Positions 51,442-60,292 of a stretch of DNA of 64,000 nucleotides are shown here, piece by piece. This stretch comes from Streptomyces sp. WM6378 (GTDB lineage: Bacteria > Actinomycetota > Actinomycetes > Streptomycetales > Streptomycetaceae). A model generated the notes under the pieces. The model did no database searches and was not told the DNA's origin. It saw nothing but the letters and a program-made list of their open reading frames with translations. The DNA lies in assembly GCF_001279695.1 (NCBI RefSeq), contig NZ_LGDD01000294.1:1-64000 (forward strand), given 5' to 3'. Position 1 is the stretch's first letter. Every line of letters begins with the position of its first letter. A program made the translations under genes and the position numbers.

Positions 51442-52290
<849 letters not shown>

Positions 52291-52368
52291 CGCGCGGAGC
52301 CGCTGACCCCGGCCCGGCCGGGCGCCCCGAATTTGCGGGCGTCCGGCCGAACCTGCTCATATAGGGGC

Positions 52369-53022
52369 ATGTCGATCACAGTGGTCATCGCGGACGACCA
52401 GGAAATGGTCCGTACCGGCTTCCGCATGATCCTGGAGAGCAGGGACGACATCGAGGTCCTCGCCGACGTCGTCGACGGGCACGCCGCCCTCGAAGCCGTC
52501 GAGCGCCTCCAGCCGGACGTGCTGCTCCTCGACATCCGGATGCCCGGCCTCGACGGCCTCGAAGTCACCCGCCGCCTGGGCGGCCGCGACCACCCCCGCA
52601 TCGTCATCTGCACCACCTTCGACCTCGACGAATACGTCCACGCGGCCCTGCGCGGCGGCGCCTCCGGCTTCCTCCTCAAGGACGCCAGCCCCGAAATGCT
52701 CGTCGAAGCGGTGCGCGCCGCGGCCGCCGGGGACTCGCTCGTCTCACCCGCGATCACCGTGCGGCTGTTGAAGGAACTCGCCTCGGCCCGCCCCGCCGAA
52801 GGCGTACGCAAACCGTCCGAGCCGCTCACCGAACGCGAACGCGACGTCGTGCGCTGCCTCGCCCGCGGCGCCACCAACGCCGAGATCGCGCGCGAGCTGT
52901 ACGTCTCCCTGTCCACCGTGAAGACCCACCTCGCCAACGTCCAGGGCAAACTCGGCGCCCGCAACCGCGTGGAGATCGCCGCCTGGGCCTGGGAGAGCGG
53001 ACTCGCCACGAGCGCCGCGTGA
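52369..53022 (+). CDS. NarL/LuxR-type response regulator
   Basis: A 217-residue response regulator. The receiver has acidic residues in VVIADDQEMVR, phosphoacceptor Asp55 in LLLDIRMPG, Thr in CTTFD and Lys in FLLKDA. The C-terminal LuxR helix-turn-helix is LTERERDVVRCLARGATNAE followed by IARELYVSLSTVKTHLANV. It precedes its histidine kinase by 7 bases. Targets are unknown; the neighbouring PixA-like operon is convergent with the pair. Confidence 0.93.
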   Translation: MSITVVIADDQEMVRTGFRMILESRDDIEVLADVVDGHAALEAVERLQPDVLLLDIRMPGLDGLEVTRRLGGRDHPRIVICTTFDLDEYVHAALRGGASGFLLKDASPEMLVEAVRAAAAGDSLVSPAITVRLLKELASARPAEGVRKPSEPLTERERDVVRCLARGATNAEIARELYVSLSTVKTHLANVQGKLGARNRVEIAAWAWESGLATSAA

Positions 53023-53029
53023 CGCGCCC

Positions 53030-54175
53030 GTGAGCCCCGTACGCCGCTGGCTCGGCCACCATCCGCGCGTCGCGGCCACCGCCCGGCCCCTGCTCGCCGC
53101 CGTCCTCGTCGCCCTCGTCACCTACGAAGGCGTGGCACTTGCCCGCCAGCCCACCCGGCCGCACGCCATCGTGTGGAGCGCCGGGATCGTGGTGTGCGTC
53201 TGCGCGGTGCCCTGGACGAGGATCCCGCTCGTCCCGCGCGCCTGGACCGCGGCCGTCGTCAGCTGGACCGCGACCGCCCTGCTCTTCACCGGCCGCCCCG
53301 AGATCGTCTGGGGCATGGGCGAGGCCATCGCCCTCCTGGTACTGCTCTCCTCGGTGCTCCTGTACGCCCCCGCCCGCACCGCCGCCGTCCTCGGCCCGGT
53401 GCTCGGCCTCGGCTGCGTGGCGGCGCCGGTACGCGACGCACAACCCGGCCGGTTCACCCTCCTGTTCACCGTCCTCGCCGTCGTCGTCAGCGCCTACTCG
53501 CTGCTCCTGCGCGCCCAGTCGGGCCAGCGCGTCCGCGACCTGGAGGCGGTACGCACCGCCGAGCGCATCGAACTCGCCCGCGAACTGCACGACTTGGTCG
53601 CCCACCACGTCACCGGCATCGTCGTCCAGGCCCAGGCCGCCCGCTTCACCGCCGTCTCCGGTGAACGCGCCGCCGAGTCCTTCGCCCGCATCGAGGAGGC
53701 GGGCGGCGAGGCGCTCGGCGCGATGCGGCGCCTGGTGCGGGTGCTGCGCGAGGGCGACGCGGAGACCGAGCCGGTGGCCGGCCTCGCCCAGGTCCGCGAG
53801 CTCGCCGCCCGCTTCTCCCGCGCCGGACCCCCGGCCGTCCTGTACATCGAGACCGGCCTGGAGGAACACCTGCCCGGCGACGCCGCCGCCCTCGCCCACC
53901 GGGTGGTGCGCGAATCCCTGACCAACGTACGCAAACACGCGGCGGACGCCACGGCCGTACGCATCGGCATCCGCACCACCGGCGGCCGCCTCGAAGTGCG
54001 CGTCAGCGACGACGGGGCCAGCGCGGCCACCCTCGCCGAACAGGCCCGCGGCGGCGGCTTCGGACTTGCGGGCCTGACCGAACGGGTCACCGCGATGGGC
54101 GGCGACCTCGCCGCGGGCCCCACCCCCGAAGGCGGCTGGCAGGTCACCGCGGTCCTGCCCCTCGAAGAGGAGTAG
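53030..54175 (+). CDS. NarL-partner sensor histidine kinase (HisKA_3)
   Basis: A 381-residue kinase with five or six membrane segments in residues 15-165 and no large extracellular sensor domain. The phosphoacceptor is His187 in ELARELHDLVAHHV (HisKA_3), followed by an HATPase_c domain with N box RESLTNVRKHA, D box SDDGASA and G box GGGFGLAGLTERV. GTG start at 53030. It phosphorylates the adjacent response regulator; the signal is probably membrane- or cell-wall-borne. Confidence 0.92.
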   Translation: MSPVRRWLGHHPRVAATARPLLAAVLVALVTYEGVALARQPTRPHAIVWSAGIVVCVCAVPWTRIPLVPRAWTAAVVSWTATALLFTGRPEIVWGMGEAIALLVLLSSVLLYAPARTAAVLGPVLGLGCVAAPVRDAQPGRFTLLFTVLAVVVSAYSLLLRAQSGQRVRDLEAVRTAERIELARELHDLVAHHVTGIVVQAQAARFTAVSGERAAESFARIEEAGGEALGAMRRLVRVLREGDAETEPVAGLAQVRELAARFSRAGPPAVLYIETGLEEHLPGDAAALAHRVVRESLTNVRKHAADATAVRIGIRTTGGRLEVRVSDDGASAATLAEQARGGGFGLAGLTERVTAMGGDLAAGPTPEGGWQVTAVLPLEEE

Positions 54176-54262: not shown

Positions 54263-54817
54263 TCAGACCGCGAGGACCCGGATCGAGGGGTGCTCCACGG
54301 TGTTCAGGTACAGCTTCTCCTTCTTGCCGTCCTGCTCCAGCTCCACCACCAGGCGATAGCGGTACACGCCCGGCCGCGTGGTGCTCAGGATCGTGCCCGC
54401 CCAGTAGTAGTAGACCGGCGTGAACGGGTCGCGCATCCGGTCCGGCATCCCGTAGATCTTCAGCTCCGTACAGATCTTCCGCTCGATGACGTCCTCCTCG
54501 TCACCCCGCTCGGTGTCGAGGAAGACCAGGCTGCTGATCTTCGGCATCGGCGGCCAGGTGCCGTCGGGGCGCTTCTCCATGTCGACGGGCCGGATGATCC
54601 AGTTCAGGACCTGGCCCTGCTTGCAGACCGTCTCAAGGCGGTGGGTGCCCTGCCCGGTGCCGCCCACGCTGTTGTCCATCATGTACATGGAGTCCTTCAG
54701 CGAACCCGTCGCCGCCGCCCGCCCCATGTTCACGAGCGTCACGACATTGAGCTGCACGGAGTTCAGCTGACCCGGGTTCTGCTTCTCCACCTCGCTGGTG
54801 CGCGTACTCGTACTCAA
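54263..54817 (-). CDS. AidA/PixA-like inclusion-body family protein (paralogue 1)
   Basis: A 184-residue soluble protein with a beta-sandwich-like pattern. Near the N-terminus it has QLNVVTLVNMGRAA, then GTGQGTHRLETVCKQGQVLN, and near the C-terminus YYYWAGTILSTTRPGVYRYR. The GxGQGTxxL...GQxLxW and YxWxGT...PGxYxYR blocks are shared with the other three proteins of this operon and recall the AidA/PixA inclusion-body family. No signal peptide. The TTG start at 54817 has GGAGGAG. It is last in the operon. Function unknown. Confidence 0.6.
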   Translation of the reverse strand: MSTSTRTSEVEKQNPGQLNSVQLNVVTLVNMGRAAATGSLKDSMYMMDNSVGGTGQGTHRLETVCKQGQVLNWIIRPVDMEKRPDGTWPPMPKISSLVFLDTERGDEEDVIERKICTELKIYGMPDRMRDPFTPVYYYWAGTILSTTRPGVYRYRLVVELEQDGKKEKLYLNTVEHPSIRVLAV

Positions 54818-54840
54818 CGCTCCTCCTTCGGGCACGCCGG

Positions 54841-55278
54841 TCAGCCGAACAGGGCCGGCGGCAGAGTGGTCGTGATGGGATCGGTCCTCGTGCCCACCCT
54901 GAACCTGATCTGGTACGGCACGGACTGGACGTCGTCCTTCTTCACCGTCCCGATCCAGTACGCGACATCGGTACCCGGATAGATCTTCCGCTCCGGCTCG
55001 ATCACGTCCCGGTCGATCACGATGTCGTCGATGCTGACGAACGCCTCGCACTCCAGCGCGAGCACGTTCCACAGCAGCTGGTCGCCGCGCTTGACCTTCG
55101 TCCGCAGCTCCTCGGTGCCGAACCCGGTCGAGCCGCCCGCCTTGTTGGTGTCGTACAGATACAGGTGGCCGTGCACGCTGTGGGAGGCGAGCGCCCCCAC
55201 GCAGTCCACCACCGCGGTGATCGAGATCGGCCGCTTGGCGCCGGTCCCGGTCTCCCGCAGCCTCGGTTTCGTGGTCAT
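54841..55278 (-). CDS. AidA/PixA-like family protein (paralogue 2)
   Basis: A 145-residue protein sharing the operon's motif set: ITAVVDCVGALASHSVHGHL, then GFGTEELRTKVKRGDQLLWN, then VAYWIGTVKKDD. It is the shortest and most diverged of the four and lacks the PGxYxYR motif, having SVPYQIRFRVG instead. The ATG at 55278 follows GAGGAGGAGC. It is 23 bases upstream of paralogue 1. No signal peptide or catalytic motif. Confidence 0.6.
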   Translation of the reverse strand: MTTKPRLRETGTGAKRPISITAVVDCVGALASHSVHGHLYLYDTNKAGGSTGFGTEELRTKVKRGDQLLWNVLALECEAFVSIDDIVIDRDVIEPERKIYPGTDVAYWIGTVKKDDVQSVPYQIRFRVGTRTDPITTTLPPALFG

Positions 55279-55327
55279 CTGCTCCTCCTCGTTCTGGCTG
55301 GGTCAGGGGTCCTACGAGCAGGCGCCG

Positions 55328-56128
55328 CTACGAGAACGGGCGCGGCGGGATGGGCAGCAGACCGAGCCCCGCCTTGGTGAAGGCGTTCCGCTTGGGCTCG
55401 GTGACGACCCTGATCCGCGACTCGCACGTCAGGTTCACCGGCTCCCACAGCGACTCGCCGCCCTGCTGCACGAGCCGGTGCAACTGGATCCGCATCGTGT
55501 ACGCGTAGGTTCCCGGCCGGGACGTGTCGACCGTCGCCGACCAGTACCAGCCGTCGGTCACCAGGTCGGGCGAGCCGTACTCGGCGGGATAGATGACCTT
55601 CTCGTCGACGGCCTGGCCGTAGATGTCGGTGATCACCGGCGCGGGGTAACTGTGCGCCCCCGTAGAGCCGTTGGAGACCACCTTGCCCGTGACGTCCAGG
55701 ACCTTCTGGCCCGAAAGGCGGCCCCGGGTGCGCCGCGTCGTCTTCACCCGCCGGCCCGCGGTCTGCCGGATCCGGATCAGCTCGGCCGCCGCGTCCACCC
55801 CGGCCGCACTCGACTTCACCGCCAGGTCGTCCAGCTCGGCCAGCGCCTGCTCGTCGGTCGCCCGTGCCCGCTCGGCCTCGTAGCCGCGCGGCACCGTCGG
55901 CGGGATCGAACCCAGGCTGTAGGGAAGCCAGTTGAGGACCTGCTCGCTCGCCTGCGAACCGTCGCTCCAGTACGAGCCGTTGATCGCGGTCACCAGGTCG
56001 CCGGTGCCCTGGTTCTCCGAGCCCTGCAACTTCATGTTGTCGAACAGGTACGTATTGCCGTCCAGGGTCTGGGACTCCAGCGCGTTGCCGACGTCCACGA
56101 GCACGATGACCGCTAGCTGCTGGGGCAT
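55328..56128 (-). CDS. AidA/PixA-like family protein with central insertion (paralogue 3)
   Basis: A 266-residue protein, the longest of the four. N-terminal block: VIVLVDVGNALESQTLDGNT then NQGTGDLVTAINGSYW. C-terminal block: DGWYWSATVDTSRPGTYAYT. Between them an extra stretch of about 100 residues is rich in Ala, Glu and Arg (YEAERARATDEQALAELDDL, RRVKTTRRTRGRL) and may be helical. The NALESQTLDGNTYLFDN segment resembles paralogues 2 and 4 most. ATG 56128 with GAGGAAGG upstream. Confidence 0.6.
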   Translation of the reverse strand: MPQQLAVIVLVDVGNALESQTLDGNTYLFDNMKLQGSENQGTGDLVTAINGSYWSDGSQASEQVLNWLPYSLGSIPPTVPRGYEAERARATDEQALAELDDLAVKSSAAGVDAAAELIRIRQTAGRRVKTTRRTRGRLSGQKVLDVTGKVVSNGSTGAHSYPAPVITDIYGQAVDEKVIYPAEYGSPDLVTDGWYWSATVDTSRPGTYAYTMRIQLHRLVQQGGESLWEPVNLTCESRIRVVTEPKRNAFTKAGLGLLPIPPRPFS

Positions 56129-56185
56129 GAGCCCACCTTCCTCGTCTCTCGTTTCCCGTTGGGGGGTTTGCTCGTCGGCTGCCGG

Positions 56186-56668
56186 CTACAGACACATCAG
56201 CGCGGGCGACTCGATGTGCAGCGTGCTGAACTCGCCCTCGTACATCTGCACTTCGAGCCGGTACTGGTGGGCCACGCCCGGCGCCAGGTAGGGCACCACG
56301 CCGCTCCACACATCCAGCTCGGGGTTGTGCCGCTCCTCGGTGTGCCCGTCGTGGCCGCGCTGTACGGGGGCCTGGCGCTGGGGGGCCTGCGCGGCGGGGG
56401 GTGCCTGCCCGTCTTCGTGCCCGCCGTCGGCGTCCGGGCCGAGGAAGGTGATGCTCTTGATCTCGACCGGGGTCTGGAGGTCGACGGCCAGCGCGGACCA
56501 GGTGACGACCTGGCCGGGCTTGACGACCGTGACCAGCTCGGGGGTTCCCTGGCCGGTGCTCTGCAACGAACCGTCGTCGATCATGCAGAGGTTCCCGTTG
56601 CGCAGGGTGCCGTCCGAGAGCGCCCCGATGACGTCCACGACCACGACGATGTTGACCTTCGGGTTCAT
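56186..56668 (-). CDS. AidA/PixA-like family protein with PQ-rich linker (paralogue 4)
   Basis: A 160-residue protein. N-terminal block: NIVVVVDVIGALSDGTLRNG then STGQGTPELVTVVKPGQVVT. C-terminal block: LDVWSGVVPYLAPGVAHQYR. A low-complexity linker of about 35 residues (DGQAPPAAQAPQRQAPVQRG) separates them. The blocks align clearly with AidA/PixA-type beta proteins. ATG 56668 with AGGAG 5 bases upstream. It is the first PixA-like gene after the adenylate-forming enzyme. Confidence 0.6.
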   Translation of the reverse strand: MNPKVNIVVVVDVIGALSDGTLRNGNLCMIDDGSLQSTGQGTPELVTVVKPGQVVTWSALAVDLQTPVEIKSITFLGPDADGGHEDGQAPPAAQAPQRQAPVQRGHDGHTEERHNPELDVWSGVVPYLAPGVAHQYRLEVQMYEGEFSTLHIESPALMCL

Positions 56669-56711
56669 CCTCACTCCTGTTCTCGTGTCCTGCCGATGCG
56701 CGTGCGTGTCG

Positions 56712-58268
56712 TCAACCCCGGTCCCGCACCAGCGGCACCTTGCCCACGGCCGTCCGCTCGATCTCCGGCGACGCGTGGGGGACGAACTTGAGCTGGAACC
56801 GGTAGCCGGTCTTCTCGACCGACAGCGGGTTCGCCTCGCCCTGGTTGAACAGCGAAAGCGCGCGCGGCACCGCGTTGACGAACACGCTCTGCAGCCCGTA
56901 CGGGCCGAGCGTGGTGTCCATCCGGTAGGTCAGGCCCGGTACGTCGTCCACCGAGGCGACCAGCGTGATCGTCCGCCCCTCGCGGTGGTTGACGAACTGC
57001 ACCTCGTGCGCCACCTCGTCCAGGTCCACCGCGGTCGCCGTCCGCAGCTCCTCGCGCAGCGCGTCGTAGGCGCGGGCCGCCGAGTACTGGCTGTCGGCCA
57101 GGTGCAGGACGTCACCGGTGCGCCCGGCGAACTCGAACTGCTGGGTCTTCAGGCCGGGCCCGTCCAGGCGGGGCCGCCGGATCATCCGGTCGCCCAGCTT
57201 GAGGCGGAGCAGCGGCGCCTCGTGGGCGTGAAGGCGCGTGACGACCAGCTCGCCCTCCTCGCCCTCGCCGACCCAGCGCCCCCGCTCGTCCACGATCTCG
57301 ACCAGGTGCAGGCCCGGAACGGACGCCAAGTACGGTGATTCGGCACGCAGTTGGAGCCCGATGGTCTCGGCCTGGGTCGCCGCGAAGTAGCTGAGGATCA
57401 CCAGGTTCGGGTAGACCGCCTGGAGCTCGGCCCGCTTGCGTTGGGCCAGCACCCCGCTGCCGTACAGGGCGACCCGGAAGCTGTCCCGGGCCTCGCGGCT
57501 CATGCCCGCGCCCAACTCGCTGAGGATCGCGATGCCCGCGGTGATGCCCATCAGGGCCTTGGGCCCCGGGTAGGAGAACATGTGCTCAAGGACCCCGGCG
57601 GTGACCGGACCCGCCCCGATGTAGTTGACGCCCGGCACGTTCTGCAGGACACCGCCCACCATGGTGCCGCTGCTCCACATCTGGTAGTCGGCCAGCGTGG
57701 TGTACAGCCACTTGGGGTCGGCGCCCCGCAGGTATTCACCGAGCTGATAGGTGCCCATGAAGTGGCCGGCGATCTCGTACGTGTCCCGCAACTCGCGCAG
57801 GGAATACACGATTTCGAGCGGGCGCCCGCCGCTGGTGCCGCCGCTCGCCACTATTTCGAATCCGCCGTGGCCGAGCGGGACGACCATGCCGGGCCGGTCG
57901 CCCATGAAGAAGTCGCGCTGGGTGTCCTTGTCGGACAGCGGAACGCGCTGCCATTCCTCGAACGTCGCCGGAGCGCCGGTGACCCCGGCTTCGGTGAGCC
58001 GGTCCCGCCACAGCGGATTCAGCAGCGTCGTGTTGACCATTTGCTGAAGCCGGCGCAGCGTCAACGCGTCCTGGACGTCGTGCGCCATCTCGCTGTACGG
58101 GCTCTGGCAGACCCGTTCACATTCGCGGATCTTGCTCGCGAACGAGGCGAGATGCGGCACGGCCGCCACGGAATCCGGTTTCAGCTCCCAGTCCGGGATG
58201 AGCCAGCCCGCCAGCTCTCCGGCGTCCCCGGGTGCCACCCGGGCCTGCGGCTCGTGCACTGAACTCAT
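56712..58268 (-). CDS. PaaK-like adenylate-forming (ANL) enzyme
   Basis: A 518-residue AMP-binding enzyme of the phenylacetate-CoA ligase type. The P-loop is IVASGGTSGGRPLEIVYS near residue 145, with further core motifs (SYFAATQAETIGLQ, LRLKLGDRMIRRP). The C-terminal catalytic Lys is in VGKVPLVRDRG. It has no carrier-protein domain. It would activate a carboxylic acid as an adenylate and transfer it to CoA or an amine. I chose ATG 58268 with AAAAGGGG; an in-frame GTG 58298 overlaps the decarboxylase stop as GTGA. The acid is unknown. Confidence 0.75.
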   Translation of the reverse strand: MSSVHEPQARVAPGDAGELAGWLIPDWELKPDSVAAVPHLASFASKIRECERVCQSPYSEMAHDVQDALTLRRLQQMVNTTLLNPLWRDRLTEAGVTGAPATFEEWQRVPLSDKDTQRDFFMGDRPGMVVPLGHGGFEIVASGGTSGGRPLEIVYSLRELRDTYEIAGHFMGTYQLGEYLRGADPKWLYTTLADYQMWSSGTMVGGVLQNVPGVNYIGAGPVTAGVLEHMFSYPGPKALMGITAGIAILSELGAGMSREARDSFRVALYGSGVLAQRKRAELQAVYPNLVILSYFAATQAETIGLQLRAESPYLASVPGLHLVEIVDERGRWVGEGEEGELVVTRLHAHEAPLLRLKLGDRMIRRPRLDGPGLKTQQFEFAGRTGDVLHLADSQYSAARAYDALREELRTATAVDLDEVAHEVQFVNHREGRTITLVASVDDVPGLTYRMDTTLGPYGLQSVFVNAVPRALSLFNQGEANPLSVEKTGYRFQLKFVPHASPEIERTAVGKVPLVRDRG

Positions 58269-58294
58269 GGACGACCCCTTTTCGTTGGTGGTCC

Positions 58295-59890
58295 TCACCG
58301 GCTTCGCTGTGCCTGGCGGAGCAGGTCCTGGCCGACCCGCCGGATTTCGCCGAGCAGCATGCGGAAGTGCTCGGAGGTGACCTGATGGTTCATCATGACC
58401 ACGCGCAGGGCGGCGACTTCACCCACGTTCACCTTGGAGATGAAGAAGTTGCCCTCGAATTTGATCCGATTCCTGATCTCCACCTGGAAGTCGTGCACAT
58501 CTGCCTCGTGGAGCCCCGCTGGGCGATAGCGGAAGCACAGGATGTTGGCTTCGGGACGGTGCAGGGTCTCGAAGTCCGGCTCGCCTTCGAGTATGCGGTG
58601 GACGTCTCCCGTCAGGCGGCACAGGTACTCGATCTTCTGGGCGAACAGGGCCCTTCCGTGGATGGCCCACAACGTCCAGAGCGGCATGATCATCGGGCGC
58701 TTGGTGCATTCGAAGTTCTTCTCGCCGCTGTCGAGCGCGGTATAGATGTCCGGCTCCTCGTCGAACACGTAGCTCGCCTGCTGGCGGAACGCGCCGAGGC
58801 TGTTCTCCCTGTTCCGGTAGAACAGCAGCGTGCAGGGCGCGGGCGTGAACATCATTTTGTGCGCGTCCCACGTCAGGGAATCCACCTGCTCGACGCCCCG
58901 CAGTTTGTGCCGCAGTTCGTCCGACACCAGCAGGCTCGCGCCGTGCGCGCCGTCGACGTGCAGCCACAGGTCCCGCTCGCGGGCCAGACCCGCGAGTTCG
59001 TCCAGCGGGTCGAAGGCGCCGACCGGCGTGGTGCCCGCCGAGGCGACCAGGCAGAACACCTTCAGGCCGCGCCGCTCGGCCGCGTCCAGGACCGGGCGGG
59101 CCCGCTCCACACAGATCTGGTGCCGCTCGTTCAGCGGGAGCCGCACGATCTGGGCGTCGCCGATGCCCATCACCCCGGCCGCCCGCGCCACGCTGTAGTG
59201 GACGTCGTCGCCGACCGCGATGGCGGGCCTGAGCTGCCCCATCAGACCCGCCCCGCCCTGCGACCAGTACCCGGGGAAGGCCTTGTTGCGGGCCGAGAGC
59301 AGCGCGGTGAGGTTGGCGAGCGAGCCCCCGGAGGTGGTCACCATCGCGAAGCTGTCCGGGTCCCAGCCGATGAAGGCGTTCAGCTCCTCGGCCATGATCC
59401 GCTCGGCCACGTTGGGGAGTTGGGCGGCCTCGTAGAACGAGGAAGGCTGGTTGACGACCGAGCTCACGAAGTCGATGACCCCGGACAGCGGCACGACACC
59501 CGAGAACTGGCGCCCCATGTATCCGGGCGAATGCACCTGGATCCCGGTCTTGATGTACAGGTCGACGATCGCGGCCAGCTTGTTCTCGTCGAACGCCGCG
59601 ATCTGTTCGCTCTCCGTGGTCATCAGGGCCCTGGCCGCGTCGATGAGGATCGCGGGATCGGTCAGGTCGAGCCCCCTGATCGAGAGGTCGGCCAGGTGTT
59701 TCTCCAGCTTGGCGACGACCGTCTCGGACTGTTCACGGAAGAGCTGGGCGTCGAACGCCTCCAATAATAATCCACTTTCGAGCGTTCCTGTCGCTTGAGG
59801 CGGCGAGGCAGCGGTCCCCGCCTGGGCGGAGAACGGCTCCGTGCCGTCGTGCCGCACACCGAAAGGGTTCTCCGACCGGTATTCCGTCAA
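58295..59890 (-). CDS. PLP-dependent group II decarboxylase
   Basis: A 531-residue fold-type I PLP enzyme of the DDC/GAD/tyrosine-decarboxylase family. Motifs: MVTTSGGSLANLTALLSARN, the PLP-ring His/Asp region LHVDGAHGASLLVSD, and Schiff-base Lys345 in SLTWDAHKMMF. The C-terminal domain is complete. The first 40 residues are a variable extension. The TTG start at 59890 has AGAGGAGAT 5 bases upstream. It is first in the PixA-like operon and would make an amine from an amino acid. Substrate (aromatic, acidic or diamino) is not readable. Confidence 0.8.
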   Translation of the reverse strand: MTEYRSENPFGVRHDGTEPFSAQAGTAASPPQATGTLESGLLLEAFDAQLFREQSETVVAKLEKHLADLSIRGLDLTDPAILIDAARALMTTESEQIAAFDENKLAAIVDLYIKTGIQVHSPGYMGRQFSGVVPLSGVIDFVSSVVNQPSSFYEAAQLPNVAERIMAEELNAFIGWDPDSFAMVTTSGGSLANLTALLSARNKAFPGYWSQGGAGLMGQLRPAIAVGDDVHYSVARAAGVMGIGDAQIVRLPLNERHQICVERARPVLDAAERRGLKVFCLVASAGTTPVGAFDPLDELAGLARERDLWLHVDGAHGASLLVSDELRHKLRGVEQVDSLTWDAHKMMFTPAPCTLLFYRNRENSLGAFRQQASYVFDEEPDIYTALDSGEKNFECTKRPMIMPLWTLWAIHGRALFAQKIEYLCRLTGDVHRILEGEPDFETLHRPEANILCFRYRPAGLHEADVHDFQVEIRNRIKFEGNFFISKVNVGEVAALRVVMMNHQVTSEHFRMLLGEIRRVGQDLLRQAQRSR

Positions 59891-60292
59891 CGGGATCTCC
59901 TCTGAAGAATGTGGCGCGTCCGGGCATGGCGGTGTCCAGAGGCTGCCGAGGCAATCGGGAAAGGTCCGGGGAAAGGGCCCGGCACACCTGGTCGAGGCGC
60001 GATGGTGGCCCTGGGCACGGAACGGCCCGCAGGGGTGACGCGGGCCCGCGTCCGCCATGGCACGCAGGGAGGGAAGAAAAGATCGGCAAAACCGCGGGAA
60101 GGAATTCATCCGGGCCGCTCCCGCACGGGCCAGCACGTGTCAACGAAATGGCCGCCGACATCCCGGCGAATTTCTCATGAACGCTTACGGGGCCGGAAGT
60201 TCACTCACTCGTCATGCTCGCCGGCCGGGGCCGCCCTCGTCCGGGTTCCGTGGAATGTGGCCCCGCCGGCATCTGTTCGTCGTGAGCGGGCT

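Follow-up and report, generated by a model that had tools for sequence, protein, structure and literature searches.

The closest described relatives of the proteins considered here are MakC and MakD, which are encoded in the mak operon of Vibrio cholerae (NCBIfam NF049870; PDB 8rqy, 6tct). Both are presented as cytosolic, dimeric proteins with a described dimer interface, they are called proteins of unknown function, and the two paralogues are placed beside a tripartite toxin (PMC11484084). AidA and PixA (PF12306; PDB 4lzk, 4pib) form a further group, and AidA, PixA and MakC/MakD have been linked to virulence or stationary phase (PMC11484084, PMC9060813). For PixA, no enzyme partners of the type reported below are named in the available portion of the source (PMC9060813). 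In contrast to the mak operon, the locus analysed here comprises four MakC/MakD-like genes, the neighbours of which code for an ANL enzyme and a decarboxylase.

Gene layout of the locus

The window under analysis is a stretch of 64,000 nucleotides of Streptomyces sp. WM6378 (contig NZ_LGDD01000294.1, positions 1 to 64,000). Its DNA is G+C-rich (66–74% in 2 kb steps) and the host genome has a size of 9.49 Mb. A first-pass annotation had proposed six leftward genes at positions 54263–59890, coding for a decarboxylase, a PaaK-like enzyme and four paralogues, and this was borne out by the open reading frames of the minus strand and by family matches. The most upstream gene (58295–59890, minus strand) codes for a group II PLP decarboxylase of 531 aa matching PF00282, hereafter PLPDC. 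It starts with TTG, immediately preceded by a probable ribosome-binding site of the GGAG type (59891–59903, minus strand), the sequence of which is identical in the window and in four relatives (L010–L013). It is followed on the same strand by the gene of a stand-alone PaaK-like ANL (adenylate-forming) enzyme of 518 aa (56712–58268, with an alternative GTG start at 58298). The four remaining minus-strand genes code for MakC/MakD-like proteins, for which the working names Aid1 to Aid4 were coined in this analysis: Aid1 (56186–56668, 160 aa, alternative GTG start at 56674), Aid2 (55328–56128, 266 aa, with a variable helical insertion at approximately residues 83–124), Aid3 (54841–55278, 145 aa, the nearest of the four to MakC/MakD) and Aid4 (54263–54817, 184 aa, TTG start).

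The end of the cassette at 54263 faces a response-regulator/kinase-like pair on the plus strand (52333–54175, named from translation) in convergent orientation. A homologous pair was observed at the same position in the four nearest Streptomyces loci (L010–L013). The window also contains a plus-strand gene (51496–52290) whose product, as judged from the translation, is a serine protease of the trypsin type that has an N-terminus resembling a signal sequence. No RNA family reached its gathering score in the window.

Conservation of the six-gene unit

The PaaK-like protein was scanned against 84,980 species genomes, which delivered 65 loci, a lower bound since six short peptides seed the scan. 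The six-gene set does recur in other genomes: the order PLPDC-PaaK-Aid1-Aid2-Aid3-Aid4 is maintained on one strand in 64 of the 65 loci. The remaining locus (L074) is truncated by the end of its contig and comprises PLPDC and part of PaaK only. This conservation excludes a chance grouping of the six genes. From the gene calls made here, PLPDC and PaaK abut (median gap of −1) and the later gaps have medians of 13–43 bases. A precursor peptide encoded between cassette genes is unlikely with median gaps of at most 43 bases.

According to the titles of the genome records, the 64 loci belong to Actinomycetota (42), Pseudomonadota (11) and Bacteroidota (7), with single loci in Cyanobacteriota, Chloroflexota, Acidobacteriota and one unassigned 'Aminicenantes' bin, that is six phyla or more; for three loci (L043, L049, L064) the phylum is that of a single metagenome bin where mis-binning is possible, while the Acidobacteriota locus (L061) comes from a named strain. 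Pairwise distances between loci, compared among the six genes, correlated with r values of 0.87–0.97, which indicates joint inheritance and not contact between the proteins, because linked genes alone give high values. Both Tenacibaculum loci (L065, L068) display the order PLPDC-PaaK-PLPDC-PaaK-Aid1-4, with the enzyme pair in tandem and a single set of Aids. The PaaK tree required eight label changes for six groups where the minimum is five. This is a weak indication of possible transfer between phyla, as opposed to vertical inheritance alone.

The cassette was seldom encountered. Among 60 relatives of the window genome, of which 36 belong to the same genus, only weak PaaK matches were obtained (best E value of 3.1e-5). 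In the 394 genomes of the window's class, PaaK was detected at E ≤ 1e-60 in four; the same four gave strong Aid4 matches (236–286 bits), with one weak match of about 37 bits in each of two others, and PLPDC scores of 768–890 bits, against at most 288 bits elsewhere even though 77 of the 394 genomes match PLPDC at E ≤ 1e-60. In these class-wide searches three first-look candidates were scored per genome for PaaK and PLPDC and usually eight for Aid4, so that weak copies can escape. Aid4 had no strong match outside the centre genome in 398 Pseudomonadota and 296 Bacteroidota genomes. By sequence comparison, the cassette is a rare but strictly conserved unit across distantly related bacteria.

One weak Aid4 match in Pseudomonadota (L098, 5942–10132, genome G576) corresponds to a makD-makC-like pair followed by open reading frames of 354, 368 and 368 aa, which by size and position alone recall a tripartite pore-forming toxin operon. 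This suggests that the Aid4 profile recovers the kin of MakC/MakD in their own setting. A MakC/MakD-like gene standing on its own (130 aa) was seen in the window's class (L085, 1492–1884, and L100; G257), with no member of the six-gene set among the open reading frames of the surrounding 9 kb. A similar weak MakC/MakD-like match is located on a 3.3 kb contig of another genome (G122, L099).

The PaaK-like gene was identified in 7 of 72,556 plasmid records at E ≤ 1e-20, one of them being an 11.85 Mb Nonomuraea record that is effectively a chromosome. On two of the seven, both rhizobial plasmids, an annotated decarboxylase and the PaaK match are followed by four hypothetical proteins that correspond to the Aids in position and size, and then by a cysteine hydrolase. 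A phage origin was dismissed, as a search of 50,697 phage records gave nothing at E ≤ 1e-10, and so was an anti-phage defence system, the six proteins giving no PADLOC match at E ≤ 0.01.

Relationship of the Aid proteins to MakC/MakD and AidA/PixA

The NF049870 model (MakCD) matched Aid1–4 with E values of 1.5e-10 to 3.1e-17 (Aid1 1.8e-12, Aid3 3.1e-17, Aid4 5.5e-13), the scores of 41.2–62.8 bits lying below its cut-off of 110. Profile searches retrieved MakC (8rqy) with all four proteins (Aid1 1.8e-11, Aid2 3e-8, Aid3 3.6e-21, Aid4 9.8e-9), and the Aid4 profile detected MakD with an E value of 6.9e-8. A search with the single sequence of Aid3 was enough to find MakC (8rqy, 7.5e-11) and MakD (6tct, 2.8e-7). 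On these comparisons, MakC and MakD are the homologues to which the sequences of Aid1–4 are nearest.

The first-pass annotation had likened the four proteins to AidA/PixA. The predicted model of Aid2 adopts the beta-sandwich fold of MakC, MakD and PixA, and to that extent the likeness stands. It does not extend to family membership: PF12306 produced no match to the four Aids of the window at E ≤ 1, none of the 31 Aid4 and 4 of the 31 Aid3 relatives scanned matched (best E value of 0.039), none of these sequences reached the gathering score, and the sequences are nearer to MakC/MakD. The mutual similarity of the four proteins was clearly recovered, all six pairs being homologous with a probability of 97.8–99.9% in profile-profile comparison, where the alignment of two pairs covers 48 columns only. 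The motif set said to be common to them is exact in Aid4 (GGTGQGTHRL, GQVLNW, YYYWAGT, PGVYRYR) and looser in Aid1–3. When 261 Aid sequences were placed in one tree, all four were separated, each forming one side of a branch. The paralogues are thus old and not interchangeable, in agreement with the earlier view that they are not recent copies. In [Actinomadura] parvosata (L030, 10531–11120), Aid1 is spread over two overlapping frames, reflecting a frameshift or a sequencing error.

Features of the two enzymes

PLPDC matched PF00282 with an E value of 1.9e-51 and 175.4 bits, well above the cut-off of 27, and its nearest solved relatives are GAD67 (E value of 1.8e-54), GAD65 and CSAD. Like GAD67, CSAD and PanP, it belongs to group II and retains the catalytic lysine, aspartate, histidine, loop tyrosine and arginine of GAD67. 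In the family alignment, K345, D313 and H231 are kept in 67 of 68 sequences (the other having a gap) and Y374 and R496 in all 68. An open reading frame matching PLPDC was present in 65 of 65 loci, the copy of L054 being cut by the contig end and that of L072 being shorter (426 aa). PLPDC differs from GAD67 at Q190, S192 and N212, which are pocket positions and are aligned with R127, F129 and P149 of PLPDC, each kept in at least 97% of the family. It also differs from PanP, with 162.6 bits against a model cut-off of 606.1. The lowest score of a cassette copy (768 bits) compared with the next one (288 bits) defines PLPDC as a distinct subfamily at the sequence level.

The PaaK-like enzyme scored 20.1 and 25.8 bits with the NCBIfam PaaK models, far below their curated cut-offs of 646.3 and 700. 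The ANL superfamily fold (in the predicted model), the P-loop and the C-terminal catalytic lysine are all present, and the catalytic residues are intact in both the PLPDC and the PaaK-like families. Position 299 is a glutamine in 67 of 67 sequences, giving T-Q at the place of the usual T-E of the ANL motif A5, and a glutamate is found two residues further on in 67 of 67. As glutamine replaces the glutamate of T-E, the chemistry of the enzyme may differ. The alignment also revealed a near-invariant stretch, TTLADYQMWSSGTMVGGVL, which is particular to this family.

Fold neighbours of the model include NatL2, AjiA1 and ClxA, which are amide/ester ligases of benzoxazole pathways, and the GH3 acyl acid amido synthetases, all sharing the PaaK-type fold; AjiA1 and GH3 form esters or amides. 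In contrast to these proteins, to which it is only 10–17% identical in structure-neighbour alignments, the PaaK-like enzyme contains TTLADYQMWSSGTMVGGVL, has T-Q instead of T-E, and is accompanied by a decarboxylase. Formation of esters or amides has been described for NatL2 (PMC7204872) and for ClxA (PMC12519233). The closest relative of the PaaK-like enzyme is found in Streptomyces violascens (97% identity). Among the 120 matches listed, many had no source name, and the others were called 'hypothetical protein', 'phenylacetate-CoA ligase' (or family) or, in a single case, 'CoF synthetase'.

Accessory genes

Accessory genes on the cassette strand were detected in 11 of the 65 loci, the window having none. 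A gene for an aspartate-aminotransferase-like protein is inserted between PaaK and Aid1 in three loci, as shown by PF00155 in L043 and L045 and by clustering in L052. Clustering also revealed an isochorismatase-family gene near 15 loci, at most two genes away in 14 of them and in some cases on the opposite strand; it is close and on the same strand in six (L045, L055, L056, L058, L067, L072). PF00857 was matched in the three copies scanned (L045, L056, L031), and the best NCBIfam models for those of L045, L056 and L072 were amidohydrolases, all below cut-off. In L064, L066 and L074, a DHA2 efflux pump passing the TIGR00711 cut-off is encoded 0–74 bases upstream. Taken together, the aminotransferase, the hydrolase and the efflux pump suggest that the product is small and possibly exported, and amide chemistry is a reasonable guess for it. 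In six actinomycete loci (L036, L039, L047, L048, L050, L073), a metallo-beta-lactamase-fold hydrolase is encoded by the first or second gene that follows Aid4, with PF12706 matched in the only copy scanned (L050, 13187–13942).

Proposed function and alternatives

The analysis establishes the genes, their families, order, co-occurrence and co-divergence, the intact catalytic residues and, by model, the folds of Aid2 and the PaaK-like enzyme, and from these we infer substrates, amide bond, assembly, ligand binding, the contribution of the accessory genes and the physiological role of the cassette. The favoured reading, held tentatively and with somewhat less than even confidence, is that of a dedicated biosynthetic-and-binding cassette, in which the enzymes would make a small amide-type molecule and an assembly of Aids would bind, store or present it. 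PLPDC would decarboxylate an amino acid, the putative substrate, to an amine. The PaaK-like enzyme would adenylate a carboxylic acid and couple it to this amine (or to CoA), the presumed amide bond giving the product. Aid1–4 would be four non-interchangeable subunits of AidA/PixA fold forming a cytosolic assembly that may hold the product as a ligand. Such an assembly is indirectly suggested by the joint occurrence of four distinct subunits in 64 of 65 loci and by the dimer interface described for MakC/MakD. In some lineages the aminotransferase might supply a precursor, the isochorismatase-family hydrolase might trim or recycle the product, and the efflux pump might export it. Two observations weigh against this reading: the majority of loci, and the window among them, lack accessory genes on the cassette strand, and the T-Q of the PaaK-like enzyme may go with a different chemistry.

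Several other explanations have to be considered. The enzymes could act on the Aids themselves, the ANL enzyme attaching the amine made by PLPDC to an Aid carboxyl group, so that a modified protein assembly and no free metabolite would result. The presence of enzymes and Aids together in 64 of 65 loci, their co-divergence and the lack of a carrier protein or other acceptor among the gene calls inside the cassette would all fit such a modification, but inspection of the family alignments by eye showed neither a conserved C-terminal tail nor one acceptor residue common to the proteins, and the neighbouring efflux pumps and isochorismatase-family hydrolases suit a small molecule better, which makes it unlikely. 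An equally low probability is given to storage inclusions of the PixA type, with the enzymes making or recycling a stored nitrogen or carbon reserve. PixA proteins have been reported as inclusion body proteins in cells that enter the stationary phase (PMC9060813), and Aid2 has the PixA fold in its predicted model. A storage body built from four obligatory distinct subunits would however be out of the ordinary, and one would expect to meet a reserve system in more than 4 of 394 genomes.

An accessory role of the Aids for a secreted protein toxin, like that of MakC/MakD for MakABE, with the enzymes supplying something that the toxin needs, is suggested by their nearest named relatives and by the toxin-like size and position of the three open reading frames behind the makD-makC-like pair of Pseudomonadota. 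It is nevertheless quite improbable: clustering of the flanking genes, done without a toxin model, yielded no toxin-like family among those common to at least 4 of the 65 loci, and in 12 cassette genomes every match of the Aid4 profile at E ≤ 1e-5 falls at the cassette. The Aids might also be regulators of the two enzyme genes or of other genes, for instance by mimicking DNA, which has been proposed for one PixA protein, Bnr1, on the basis of its negative surface (PMC9060813). Aid1 of the window is indeed acidic (charge of −12, pI of 4.6), but Aid2 is only mildly so (−3.3) and Aid3 and Aid4 are near neutral (−0.2 and −0.3). With strong acidity limited to Aid1 in the window, DNA mimicry was rejected as a general explanation, and regulation retains a very slim chance. 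Finally, an ordinary central-metabolism operon, made of a catabolic decarboxylase and an acyl-CoA ligase with unrelated neighbours, would be in line with the commonness of both enzyme families, of which the PLPDC-type matches in 77 of 394 genomes are an example. Its patchy distribution, the distinct PLPDC subfamily and the constant association with four Aids in different phyla argue against it, and this explanation is disfavoured as highly improbable.

Significance

Full-text literature searches, covering few subscription journals and no bioRxiv preprints, returned no recognisable description of the cassette, which is probably a previously undescribed biosynthetic locus. Its product can be sought directly, since the locus is present in many named actinomycete strains. 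As relatives of AidA, PixA and MakC/MakD are here locked to two enzymes with screenable substrates, a concrete way towards a ligand of this fold is opened. A more far-reaching version of the biosynthetic-and-binding proposal, namely a two-enzyme pathway obligatorily coupled, as one unit across phyla, to a four-subunit hetero-assembly of AidA fold capturing, storing or signalling with the product, is still doubtful. If true, it would represent a new class of metabolite-protein system and would provide a concrete ligand for the AidA/PixA/MakCD fold.
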